DNA of 45,918 bases from Cyclobacteriaceae bacterium. Its GTDB lineage: Bacteria > Bacteroidota > Bacteroidia > Cytophagales > Cyclobacteriaceae. The notes below the pieces were generated by a model. The model saw only the letters and a program-made list of their open reading frames with translations, searched no databases and was not told the origin of the DNA. Shown here piece after piece: positions 10,701 to 35,206 of this stretch. Made by a program: the position numbers and the translations under genes. Numbering within the stretch: position 1 is the stretch's first letter; the number at the start of each line of letters is the position of its first letter. The stretch lies in the NCBI GenBank assembly GCA_021604845.1, contig BQJT01000009.1, positions 1 to 45,918 on the forward strand, in the 5' to 3' direction.

Positions 10701-10735
10701 TGCTCTATGCTCCCTGCTCTATGCTCCCTGCTTAT
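10701..10735. repeat. Imperfect heptanucleotide repeat (five units)
   Basis: Five consecutive 7-base units, TGCTCTA and TGCTCCC alternating and ending TGCTTAT, fill the gap between the methyltransferase and AIM24 genes. The first 14-base pair is exactly duplicated. The same words recur in the aldo/keto reductase gene at 18271-18305. Confidence 0.85.
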
Positions 10736-16626: not shown

Positions 16627-16668
16627 CTAAATCACTAAACCACTTAACCACCAACCCCCAATTTACTT
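16627..16668. repeat. Intergenic heptanucleotide-periodic tract (six units)
   Basis: Between the ABC-F and TRIC genes, six consecutive 7-base units can be aligned, for example CTAAATC, then ACTAAAC, later CCACCAA and CCCCCAA. The units drift gradually rather than being exact copies. The same kind of tract occurs at 33338-33393. Confidence 0.6.
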
Positions 16669-17369: not shown

Positions 17370-18371
17370 CTAACGATGCGCCAGGTACTTGTTGGGTTCA
17401 AGCACCAATCTTAACTGCTGGTACTCCTGTTCCGTTAAGCGTGTCGCTGCAGTTGCCCCCGCATTCTCCATTAGTTGCTCCTGATTGCGCATGCCTGCTA
17501 CCACCGAGCAAACTGCCGGCCCCCTCAGTGCAAATTGTATTGCGGTCTGGGCCGGCGATCGGGTCTCGTTTGCGGAACTATCCATATTTACTTCCTGCGC
17601 CTCGAGTCTCACCCCTGGGCTTTGCTCTCCCGACCTTTGGCCCTGGTCCTCAATTCCTGCAACTAATCCGGCCATTCTTGCAACTGCTTCCTGCGGATAA
17701 CCAAGATATTCTTTCGGGGGCTTATTTACCAGCAAGCCCTTAGCCACCGCCCCACGTACCATCACTGCAATATTGTTCTTTTCAAGCAACCCCAGGCAAC
17801 TTTCTTCCGGTCGACGATCCAATAGACTGTACTGCATCATCACGCTTACCATGCTCGAGCGCTTAACATATTCCCTTATCACATTGGGCCTGATAGAACT
17901 GATCCCATAGGCTCTGATCTTACCCTGTTGTTTTAGTAGTTCAAATGCTTCGATGGTTTCGTCTATGGGGTCTTCAATGGTGCCTCCATGTAGTTGGTAT
18001 AGATCAATGTAATCGGTTTGCAGACGCTTTAAACTGCCTTCCACTGCCTGCAGAATATATTCTTTTCGGGGATTCCAGTCCCATCCTGATCCATCGGGCC
18101 GTAATTGATTACCCACTTTGGTAGCGAGATATACCTCTTTGCGTTTTGCGCGCAACGCCTGGCCCACGGTGGTTTCGTTCTCGCCTTTATTATAGATATC
18201 AGCAGTATCGAAGTAGTTAATACCCAAATCCACCGCCTTATGGAGCAGCCGTTCATTCAGTTTATATACCTGCTCCCTGCTCTTTCCTCCCTGCTCCATG
18301 CTCAAAGACATGCATCCAAAACTGATGCAGCTCAGCTTCCAGCCGATTCGAGGGAGTACTCTGTATTCCAT
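17370..18371 (-). CDS. Aldo/keto reductase with two low-complexity inserts
   Basis: This 333-residue cytoplasmic NADPH-dependent oxidoreductase has INYFDTADIYNKGENE with D55 and Y60 of the catalytic tetrad, ATKVGNQL with the Lys (about 85), and DYIDLYQLHGG with the His (about 128). The cofactor region is near GPAVCSVVAGMRNQEQL. The ATG at 18369-18371 overlaps the stop of the gamma-glutamyltransferase gene as TAATG; the frame is open 16 codons further but inside that gene. Two stretches look inserted relative to the usual family pattern: residues 23-34 (LSMEQGGKSREQ), encoded by heptanucleotide repeats, and residues about 241-271 (EDQGQRSGEQSP onward). The substrate is unknown. Confidence 0.88.
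   Translation of the reverse strand: MEYRVLPRIGWKLSCISFGCMSLSMEQGGKSREQVYKLNERLLHKAVDLGINYFDTADIYNKGENETTVGQALRAKRKEVYLATKVGNQLRPDGSGWDWNPRKEYILQAVEGSLKRLQTDYIDLYQLHGGTIEDPIDETIEAFELLKQQGKIRAYGISSIRPNVIREYVKRSSMVSVMMQYSLLDRRPEESCLGLLEKNNIAVMVRGAVAKGLLVNKPPKEYLGYPQEAVARMAGLVAGIEDQGQRSGEQSPGVRLEAQEVNMDSSANETRSPAQTAIQFALRGPAVCSVVAGMRNQEQLMENAGATAATRLTEQEYQQLRLVLEPNKYLAHR
18271..18305. repeat. Heptanucleotide repeat inside the aldo/keto reductase gene
   Basis: On the plus strand this reads as five 7-base units: TGCTCCC, TGCTCTT, TCCTCCC, TGCTCCA, TGCTCAA. It shares the 13-base word TGCTCCCTGCTCT with the intergenic tract at 10701-10735. Five heptads are 35 bases, but the frame of the host gene stays open. 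Confidence 0.8.
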
Positions 18372-30478: not shown

Positions 30479-30513
30479 TGCCCTCAATTCTCTGCCCTCT
30501 TGCCCTTGCTGCT
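30479..30513. repeat. Degenerate heptanucleotide tract
   Basis: TGCCCTC recurs 14 bases apart (30479 and 30493) with AATTCTC between, followed by TTGCCCT and TGCTGCT. It resembles the 7-base-periodic tracts elsewhere in the window, but with weaker unit identity. It overlaps the upstream part of the glnS promoter. Confidence 0.45.
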
Positions 30514-32648: not shown

Positions 32649-33293
32649 ATGAAGTTTGGCTTTCCTATTTTACTGGTACTTTTCATTTCCTGCGTTGACG
32701 GTAAGGATACTTATCAGGCAGGTATTTCCGCTGTTAACCTGGCTGATGCCCAGACACAGAAACAGGCAACGTTTGCCGGCGGCTGTTTTTGGTGCACTGA
32801 AGCGGTGTTCGAACGGGTGATAGGAGTACAGGATGTTATTTCGGGTTATACTGGAGGTTCACAAAAGAACCCCACTTATAAACAGGTTAGTTATGGCAAG
32901 ACAGATCATGCAGAGGCGGTGCAAATAAATTTTGATCCCAACCAAATAACCTATGCCGAACTGGTGGAGATTTTCTTTGCCACTCATGATCCGACCACCT
33001 TAAACCGGCAAGGACCTGATATAGGGAAGCAATACCGTTCGGCAGTATATTATCATGATGAACAACAAAAGGAAATCACAGAAGCATACATAAGCAAACT
33101 CACCAGTGACCAGGTTTACGCCGATCCTATAGTGACCGAGGTACAGCAATATAGTATCTTCTACCCAGCTGAAGATTATCACCAGGATTATTACCAGAAA
33201 CACCCCAACCATCCTTATATCGTAGCTATTGCGAAACCAAAGGTTGAAAAGTTCAAAAAAAGGTTCAAAGATAAATTGAAAACTTCGTCCTAG
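32649..33293 (+). CDS. msrA: Peptide-methionine (S)-S-oxide reductase, exported lipoprotein form
   Basis: The protein has 214 residues. A short lipoprotein signal (MKFGFPILLVLFISC, Cys15) precedes the MsrA domain. The catalytic Cys is C46 in FAGGCFWCTEAVFE. VISGYTGGSQKNPTY, HAEAVQINFDP, FFATHDPTTLNRQGPDIGKQYRSAVYY and FYPAEDYHQDYY are all conserved. It reduces methionine S-sulfoxide in proteins, here probably in the periplasm. It has its own promoter and is not obviously linked to an msrB. Confidence 0.95.
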   Translation: MKFGFPILLVLFISCVDGKDTYQAGISAVNLADAQTQKQATFAGGCFWCTEAVFERVIGVQDVISGYTGGSQKNPTYKQVSYGKTDHAEAVQINFDPNQITYAELVEIFFATHDPTTLNRQGPDIGKQYRSAVYYHDEQQKEITEAYISKLTSDQVYADPIVTEVQQYSIFYPAEDYHQDYYQKHPNHPYIVAIAKPKVEKFKKRFKDKLKTSS

Positions 33294-33337: not shown

Positions 33338-33393
33338 AACACTCAACACCCAGCACCAAATACTAATTCTTAATTCCTAACTAATAATTTTAA
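33338..33393. repeat. Intergenic heptanucleotide-periodic tract (eight units)
   Basis: Eight consecutive 7-base units run without a break in phase, from AACACTC and AACACCC through AGCACCA and AATACTA to ATTCTTA, ATTCCTA, ACTAATA and ATTTTAA. Neighbouring units differ by one to three bases, so the sequence drifts along the tract. It ends 30 bases before the prephenate dehydrogenase start, just before the TATCTTTA element (33401-33408) that may be its -7 box. Confidence 0.65.
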
Positions 33394-33423: not shown

Positions 33424-34260
33424 ATGCGAATTTCAATAGTTGGACTAGGTCTTATTGGTGGTTCGATGGCTTTGGACCTGAAAGCATCAGGATTCGCGAC
33501 CGAAGTGATTGGGGTCGATATCAGTGAGAGTCATTGTCAACAAGCACTGCAAAGAAACCTTGTAGATCGTATTCTTCCGATTGAGCAGGCAATAGATCAA
33601 AGTGAACTCATTATTCTGGCAATGTCTGTTCACCACATCATTAAAACGCTACCTCAGGTATTGGATCAAGTAGAATCTCAGGTTGTTATTGATGTCGGCT
33701 CCACCAAACAACTGATATCTGAGGCGGTTAAGGATCATCCTAAAAGAGCAAACTATCTGGGTACCCACCCTATGGCAGGAACGGAATTCTCAGGCCCGCA
33801 AGCGGCACTGAAAAACCTTTTCAGGAATAAAGTTGTAATTTTTTGTGACGTTCAGGAAAGCAGCAAGAGCGCTATACTAATAGCTAATGAAGTCTACGAT
33901 TGCCTGCGAATGCCCATCGTAAAAATGACCAGCAGGCAACATGACAAACATGTGGCATATGTATCGCATATCTCACATATAAGCTCGTTTGCACTAGCAT
34001 TAACCGTTCTAAAAAAGGAAAAGGATGAACAACATATCCTTAATCTTGCCAGCGGAGGATTCGACTCTACGGTCAGATTGGCCAAAAGTAATCCGGAAAT
34101 GTGGTCTTCTATCTTCGTTCAAAACAGCGAAAATGCCATTGAGGTGCTGGATAATTACGTAACCCAACTGAAAAAGCTTAGGAAAGCCATTGAATCGCGT
34201 GATTTACACTTACTCAATAGCATTATCATGGAGGCCAATAAGATTAAGAAAATCCTGTAA
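33424..34260 (+). CDS. tyrA: Prephenate dehydrogenase
   Basis: This 278-residue protein starts MRISIVGLGLIGGSMALDL, an NAD(P)-binding Rossmann motif (GLGLIGGS, 7-14). Family motifs follow: VIDVGSTKQLI, LGTHPMAGTEFSGP (substrate-binding His), HDKHVAYVSHISHISSFAL and LASGGFDSTVRLAKSNPEMW. It makes 4-hydroxyphenylpyruvate for tyrosine synthesis. It lacks a chorismate mutase or ACT domain, which fits a monofunctional cytoplasmic enzyme. No other aromatic-pathway gene lies beside it. Confidence 0.9.
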   Translation: MRISIVGLGLIGGSMALDLKASGFATEVIGVDISESHCQQALQRNLVDRILPIEQAIDQSELIILAMSVHHIIKTLPQVLDQVESQVVIDVGSTKQLISEAVKDHPKRANYLGTHPMAGTEFSGPQAALKNLFRNKVVIFCDVQESSKSAILIANEVYDCLRMPIVKMTSRQHDKHVAYVSHISHISSFALALTVLKKEKDEQHILNLASGGFDSTVRLAKSNPEMWSSIFVQNSENAIEVLDNYVTQLKKLRKAIESRDLHLLNSIIMEANKIKKIL

Positions 34261-34348
34261 ATTTATTATGGACCACGGTTTATCAGAAGAACCTATGGTT
34301 GAATTATCCCATTATGAAAATGGTATGGAGTTTCCTTCAATGCTTCCT

Positions 34349-35206
34349 CTAGTGGGGGTCCATGTGAATCGTAAGTACCGGTACGTCCGAGTCGCGTACC
34401 AGCCGCTCTGAAAGACCTCCCACAAATAAATGCATCAGACCCTTTCGACCATGGTTTACTGATGCAACTATATCTGCATTTTTCTCCTTGGCGAACTCAA
34501 GAATAGCCTGCTCTACCTTTCCACCACGGATCGGGTTTATGGTAAGTTCCGGTACCTGATGAGGGGTCTCATGTTCCTCAGCAAATGCTTCCATGCGTTT
34601 ACGTACCTTTTCAGGATCATCGTTACTTACATGCACCATATGTACGGTAGCGCCATAATAAGTAGCAAATTTTTCAATCTGATCCACACCCTCTTTAGCA
34701 ACCGTTTTTAAATCGGTGGCGAATACGATATTTTTTACCTTAAAGTCGGTAGTTGGGTTACGGATAGTAAGTACCGGGATATGGGTAATTCGAATCACAC
34801 GTTCAGTATGGTTTCCTTCAAAATATTCAGTCCAGGTGTTTTCACCGCTAGTCCCCATAACCACCAGATCGCAGTTCAATCTTTCGGCGAAATGATTAAC
34901 ACCTTCATCCAAATCGTCAATTTCAATAAATGGATAGACCGGTACCTCTCCATGCTGATGTTTGGCGATCAGAGTTCTTAAGCGTTTTTCATTGGAACGG
35001 TGTAATTCCAGTACAAATCGGTCATCTTCTGAGACATACTCATCTGTAACGCCACCCCCCATTGAGCTGAAAGAGTAATTCTTATTAGCCCCAATTACGT
35101 TGAGCAGGAAAACCGCGCCATTGGTCTTTCGGCCTATATCCAAGGCAACATCCAGTGCGTGTTCTGAAAGTTTGGAAAAATCAGTAGGAACGACAATCTT
35201 ATACAT
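34349..35206 (-). CDS. Universal stress protein with two tandem Usp domains
   Basis: This 285-residue protein has two UspA folds. The first starts MYKIVVPTDFSKLSEHALDVAL and ends with the nucleotide loop VVMGTSGENTWTEYFEGNHTERVI. The second starts about 155 with VKNIVFATDLKTVAKEG and ends ASVNHGRKGLMHLFVGGLSERLV. The first loop resembles the ATP-binding G-2x-G-9x-G pattern; the second starts NHGRKG, so its first Gly is missing. Tandem Usp proteins of this kind are common in Bacteroidota under stress. An 8-bp inverted repeat lies upstream at 35253-35278. Confidence 0.9.
   Translation of the reverse strand: MYKIVVPTDFSKLSEHALDVALDIGRKTNGAVFLLNVIGANKNYSFSSMGGGVTDEYVSEDDRFVLELHRSNEKRLRTLIAKHQHGEVPVYPFIEIDDLDEGVNHFAERLNCDLVVMGTSGENTWTEYFEGNHTERVIRITHIPVLTIRNPTTDFKVKNIVFATDLKTVAKEGVDQIEKFATYYGATVHMVHVSNDDPEKVRKRMEAFAEEHETPHQVPELTINPIRGGKVEQAILEFAKEKNADIVASVNHGRKGLMHLFVGGLSERLVRDSDVPVLTIHMDPH

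Follow-up and report, generated by a model that had tools for sequence, protein, structure and literature searches.

The heptad tracts described here are best read as the product of phase-locked replication slippage with a step of about 7±1 nt and with strand polarity, in which drift arises by mutation and local duplication and some copying between tracts probably takes part, a reading to which we assign a probability of roughly 0.6. The window that was analysed is a stretch of 45,918 nucleotides, contig C9 of a draft genome of 5.22 Mb in 462 contigs (G000), and it was compared with the rest of that genome, with four congeners (G001-G004) and with the closed genome of another member of its order (G028, 8.98 Mb). 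Such tracts bear on an open question, the preference of bacterial simple repeats for a 7-base unit, and a genus with drifting tracts at orthologous places, polarity and motif turnover offers a direct test of slippage, strand and inter-locus copying, its genomes holding hundreds of natural replicates.

The first-pass annotation had claimed strict heptads in four gaps of the window (Table 1), and at 33338 and 10701 this was borne out. In the gap between msrA and tyrA the best lag-7 score was 17, a value that none of 5000 gap shuffles reached, and over the whole claimed span 32 of 49 positions matched at lag 7; seven of the eight in-phase units claimed there hold, while the eighth (ATTTTAA) contributes little. 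The tract at 10701 scored 14 at lag 7 (0/5000 shuffles as high), can equally be written as a perfect 14-base unit, TGCTCTATGCTCCC, and belongs to the TGCTCNN family of G000. The other two places did not hold as heptads. The tract at 16627 has a period of 8, as lag 8 matched at 21/34 positions (P=0.0002) vs 14/35 for lag 7 (P=0.055) and TRF returned a period of 8 with CTAAACCA as the unit, and the one at 30479 was rejected as a repeat of any kind (lag 7 12/28, P=0.46; any lag from 5 to 9, P=0.31), the orthologous gap in two relatives being likewise free of heptads. A heptad-like stretch at 18269 lies inside an aldo-keto reductase CDS on the minus strand, identified by its translation and a Pfam match. 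Scans against Rfam and for tRNAs gave no matches in the window.

Table 1. Features in the window (positions of the whole stretch) and repeats in the gap before tyrA of the four congeners
Feature	Position	Strand	Units	Basis or remark
Heptad tract	10701..10735	+	TGCTCTA TGCTCCC TGCTCTA TGCTCCC TGC	
Octad tract	16627..16668	+	CTAAATCA CTAAACCA CTTAACCA CCAACCCC	lag tests, TRF
Heptad-like TGCTC stretch	18269..18303	+	CCTGCTC CCTGCTC TTTCCTC CCTGCTC CATGCTC	absent from the earlier list
Claimed heptad tract, unsupported	30479..30513	+		shuffles, orthologous gaps
msrA, methionine sulfoxide reductase	32649..33293	+		upstream neighbour of the 33338 tract
Drifting heptad tract, msrA-tyrA gap	33338..33393 (significant 33338-33387)	+	AACACTC AACACCC AGCACCA AATACTA ATTCTTA ATTCCTA ACTAATA (ATTTTAA)	shuffles, orthologous gaps
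tyrA, prephenate dehydrogenase	33424..34260	+		downstream neighbour of the 33338 tract
G004 repeats	gap before tyrA		TAATTCC	
G003 repeats	gap before tyrA		CTCGTCC/TTCGTCC	
G002 repeats	gap before tyrA		CCTGCAA/CCCGCAA, about 25 units	reaching contig end
G001 short remnant	gap before tyrA		AATTCGT AATTCAT CATTTGT	

Beyond the window we used an unselected sample of G000, 1.23 Mb of its largest contigs with 581 gaps, the genes being called by a simple longest-ORF rule that limits every gap count given here. The proposed check, autocorrelation of gaps against shuffled gaps, came out in favour of a genome-wide process: identity at lag 7 was 0.2935 vs 0.2732 after shuffling (z 12.7), its harmonics at lags 14, 21 and 28 stood at z = 11.9, 9.5 and 8.8, and lags 6, 8 and 9 showed a weaker excess (z 4 to 6), so that the peak at 7 has shoulders. 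Coding sequence of the same sample had no excess at lag 7, only the lag-3 series. When tracts were scored individually (threshold, a score of at least 14), the sample yielded 3, 14, 52, 12 and 3 tracts of periods 5, 6, 7, 8 and 9, respectively, with about 50 heptad tracts in gaps, while shuffled gaps yielded none at any of these lags. In 1.54 Mb, 94 heptad tracts lay in gaps vs 3 in ORFs. Some arrays reached 20 or more units. With a 7-nt tandem unit at many loci, above chance and mostly intergenic, these tracts agree on both counts with the general class of heptanucleotide STRR or LSSR. A strict step of 7, as had been supposed, is too narrow a description, since tracts of the same style with periods of 6 or 8 are also present, and of the four places named in the window one holds an octad; octads (AACTCACC, TGGTGAAT) and hexads (ACCCAA, GTGTGA) are seemingly repeats of the same kind with another step. 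Hexads and octads make up families of their own. One gap of G000 (L065, contig C13, 7020-7151) carries a perfect GTGTGA hexad array of ~13 units beside a degenerate part, and telomere-like octads, CACCCTAA / AGGGTGTT, lie beside or near heptad tracts in G003 (L183 1740-1860) and G004 (L187 3023-3115).

Within arrays the sequence drifts and the register is kept. The array at L033 passes from TAATGAA through CGATGAA, CCATGCT and CCCTGCT to ATAATTC, and arrays of the relatives change motif in register in the same manner (GAATTAC GAAGGAC GAGGGAC; AATTACG to AGGGACG). A neighbour-similarity test over all arrays is biased by the way in which arrays are found, and it was hence rerun on 19 strong arrays, in which neighbouring units were 0.853 identical and units eight apart 0.715, against 0.725 for neighbours in shuffled order. 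This fall of identity with distance is the pattern expected from local duplication of mutated units. The two halves of the arrays did not differ in a test for growth polarity. The earlier proposal of a slippage- or template-driven process in gaps is upheld as far as a process in gaps is concerned, by the lag-7 excess, the in-phase drift and the local clustering of variants; between its two forms slippage is favoured, and a template-driven part is suggested by the sharing of motifs across a species. Slippage would duplicate or delete whole units and so keep the register, and a point mutation may be duplicated along with its unit, giving drift and finally replacement of the motif. Loops of 7 nt would evade mismatch repair. 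The reading by slippage does not account for the step of 7.

Motif replacement is most evident in orthologous gaps, for which tyrA served as an anchor. TyrA is 65-72% identical between the window and its four congeners, and the gap upstream of the gene exists in five motif versions in the five species: the congeners have three clear heptad tracts and one short remnant there, in motifs unlike that of the 33338 tract. All four skewed tracts of this gap agree in which strand is C-rich. Among 92 syntenic gaps compared with G000, tracts were present in both genomes in 9, in the relative only in 7, in G000 only in 3 and in neither in 73 (Fisher P=2e-6), and the association persisted in gaps of at least 100 bp (7, 3, 1 and 27, in the same order; P=7e-5); the contigs of the relatives and 20 contigs of G000 were partly picked for holding tracts, which inflates the margins and should not create the association. 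Three orthologous gaps have TAATTCG in G000 and TCGTCCC in G003 on the same strand (L164/L183, L160/L180, L068/L179). At a second nearby place, the gap after tyrA (window 34257-34352; L176 1068-1179), G002 carries two tracts, one heptad and one octad, and G001 a short AATTCGT pair, while G000, G003 and G004 have no scored tract, so that gain or loss has occurred there.

Motifs are also shared among unlinked loci of one species. Among 50 heptad tracts from the unselected sample there were 93 pairs with an identical consensus, where 2.4 are expected from random gap heptamers and 12.9 from letters shuffled within motifs, and the spectra of the congeners differ: in whole-genome counts for G000 to G004, TGCTCNN x3 occurs 233, 29, 10, 2 and 0 times, TCGTCC x3 0, 6, 13, 37 and 18 times, and TAATTC x3 42, 1, 3, 0 and 10 times. 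We argued that if slippage were purely local, certain heptamers being intrinsically slippage-prone, the same motifs should arise independently and no transfer between tracts would be needed. Local events do suffice for register and drift, and the TAATTCN type recurs in distant groups (G000, G028 and 28 of the 296 Bacteroidota sampled). But local slippage does not predict motif sharing within a species together with difference among congeners (in G003 about 12 loci carry TCGTCC, in G000 none), nor the exchange of TAATTCG for TCGTCCC at three orthologous gaps on the same strand, and some inter-tract copying or a species-specific bias is needed. We hold purely local slippage to be possible but rather unlikely, and within our own reading the counts of TGCTCNN x3 (233 in G000 vs 2 in G003) and of TCGTCC x3 (0 vs 37) weigh against slippage alone. 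Template switching or gene conversion via short common words, such as ACG in AATTACG/AGGGACG, may carry units from one tract to another, and such copying could give many unlinked loci of a species a common motif; this step is put forward more tentatively than the slippage steps. A stronger form appears improbable to us, in which short repeat units would be copied in trans by a templated process, either dedicated or associated with the fork, and each species would rewrite its tracts genome-wide with its own motif while position, register and strand stay as they are; it would liken the tracts to telomere repeats, which change when their template changes. We give very little credence to a dispersed mobile repeat, a small element inserting in gaps and spreading tracts, although unlinked loci share motifs and in several orthologous pairs the tract-bearing gap is longer than its empty counterpart, because no flanks outside the repeats are shared, save those of orthologues or of further repeat, and lengths and motifs grade continuously.

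Preferred slippage with strand polarity is borne on by the orientation of the tracts relative to replication. For each contig the leading strand was assigned by the GC skew at third positions, tracts being masked. On well-determined contigs of the unselected sample the C-rich strand of the tracts was leading in 20 and lagging in 3 cases (contig-sign permutation P=0.0006), and ordinary gaps on those contigs ran the opposite way, 43:65 vs 20:3 (Fisher P=5e-5); all sampled contigs gave 30:6 (permutation P=0.002). That the leading strand rests on GC skew in draft contigs with an unmapped origin weighs against the slippage reading. In the closed genome G028, the TAATTCG tracts with at least four units, 13 in all, are ordered +++++|-------|+ along the chromosome. 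By our calculation a circular order with two switches has a chance of 13/1716, and both switches are close to those of the GC skew (about 2.0-2.7 and 7.9-8.5 Mb). The dnaA gene of G028 (883 kb) was considered as the origin and dropped, as it is not at a skew switch, and a 16S search to set the replichore direction gave no match, the gene being probably masked. G028 also has about 20 perfect AATTACG units (G028:C1 6983268-6983412) and is a useful genome for testing polarity; AATTACG-type tracts are common in Nostoc. The G-rich strand folds more stably than the C-rich one in 36:10 tracts, and the nascent lagging strand would then be this somewhat better-folding one, in which looping-out of a unit may lead to expansion. 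Against this stand the small size of the folding differences, the many tracts in which neither strand folds, and the motif AATTCG, which has no C/G skew and is without polarity in G000 (5:6), yet strongly polar in G028. That the tracts run in the same direction relative to DNA copying, and that related species keep a tract in the same gap under another motif, suggests that the copying machinery yields them as by-products and that they are not switches; the genome would tolerate them without selecting their sequence.

The tracts are unlikely to have a function that depends on their sequence. Tracts with two flanking genes in 1.54 Mb occupied convergent gaps 30 times, co-directional gaps 75 times and divergent gaps 9 times, these kinds of gap numbering 88, 450 and 152, respectively; convergent gaps are thus enriched for tracts (OR 3.2, P=1e-5) and divergent ones depleted (OR 0.26, P=2e-5). 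In co-directional gaps the tract was closer to the upstream stop in 46 cases and to the downstream start in 26, and transcription imposed no bias, the C-rich strand being coding in 30 and template in 28. If the tracts were regulatory, serving as tandem binding sites of a protein that recognises DNA or RNA, a role suggested for the TAACTGA repeats, most of which directly precede start codons in a Beggiatoaceae genome (PMC4679880), their intergenic position would be explained; depletion in divergent (promoter) gaps, proximity to stops rather than starts, the unbiased transcription strand and a motif not conserved across orthologous gaps make such a role highly improbable. Chance or base composition fits the claimed tract at 30479 and is refuted genome-wide by the 52 lag-7 tracts against none in shuffled samples and by the reversed control of TGCTCNN x3, which gave 0 matches vs 233 in G000.

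Heptad repeats of this kind are an already known class, represented by cyanobacterial STRR, GGGAATC of Xanthomonas and TAACTGA of Beggiatoaceae. As with the tracts here, cyanobacterial STRR are degenerate 7-nt tandem units, and in trnL P6b of Nostoc and Calothrix one heptad class has repeatedly displaced another (PMC4476775), so that a change of motif at a single locus has a precedent; unlike them, our tracts are genome-wide and intergenic, change their motif at several orthologous gaps and are polar relative to replication. The GGGAATC heptads of Xanthomonas are about 90% intergenic, scarce between divergent ORFs and closer to the upstream ORF, and their neighbours are constant between species while length and sequence vary (PMC4692102); the tracts here share the 7-nt unit, the intergenic location, the rarity in divergent gaps, the closeness to the upstream ORF and a conserved place with varying sequence. 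In Xanthomonas and Nostoc, GGGAATC or GGGGA(C/T)T forms one main motif per genome with G-quadruplex capacity (PMC4692102), whereas here there are many motifs; tandem pairs of either were absent, and four three-G runs occurred in only 3 of the 94 heptad arrays. The Xanthomonas heptads were reported to lack a leading/lagging preference (PMC4692102), which differs from the preference seen here and speaks against the slippage reading. TAACTGA repeats occur in Beggiatoaceae, cyanobacteria and some Bacteroidetes, some of the latter with other heptamers mixed in, and two close Cyanothece strains differ mostly by 7-nt indels in them (PMC4679880). They too are intergenic heptamer tandem repeats, but our tracts lack the upstream-of-start placement, and no TAACTGA tandem pair was found in 1.99 Mb sampled from five species. 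According to PMC4679880 and PMC4692102, Mrazek (2007) found heptanucleotides to be the commonest class of long simple sequence repeats (LSSR, 5-11 nt) in most genomes and proposed slippage with a 7-nt polymerase contact; drifting degenerate tracts like 33338 would probably be missed by a search aimed at long near-perfect repeats. Three features go beyond the descriptions that we found, in a search that covered little of the subscription literature: another motif in the same gap of congeners, motif sharing among unlinked loci within a species, and a leading C-rich strand.

The attribution of the process to this lineage alone was too narrow, as tracts are present in the member of the same order and in an outgroup Bacteroidetes genome and are known from published work on Xanthomonas, cyanobacteria and Beggiatoaceae. 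Inverted repeats are no more frequent in gaps that bear tracts than in ordinary ones. In three convergent gaps (L045 13197-13306; L047 3983-4058; L076 7359-7416) two tracts stand in opposite orientation and could form a stem-loop, resembling the inverted pairs reported in Xanthomonas. A TTGTTCC-type heptad tract lies at L092 8818 in another Bacteroidetes MAG, so that such tracts are not confined to the genus.
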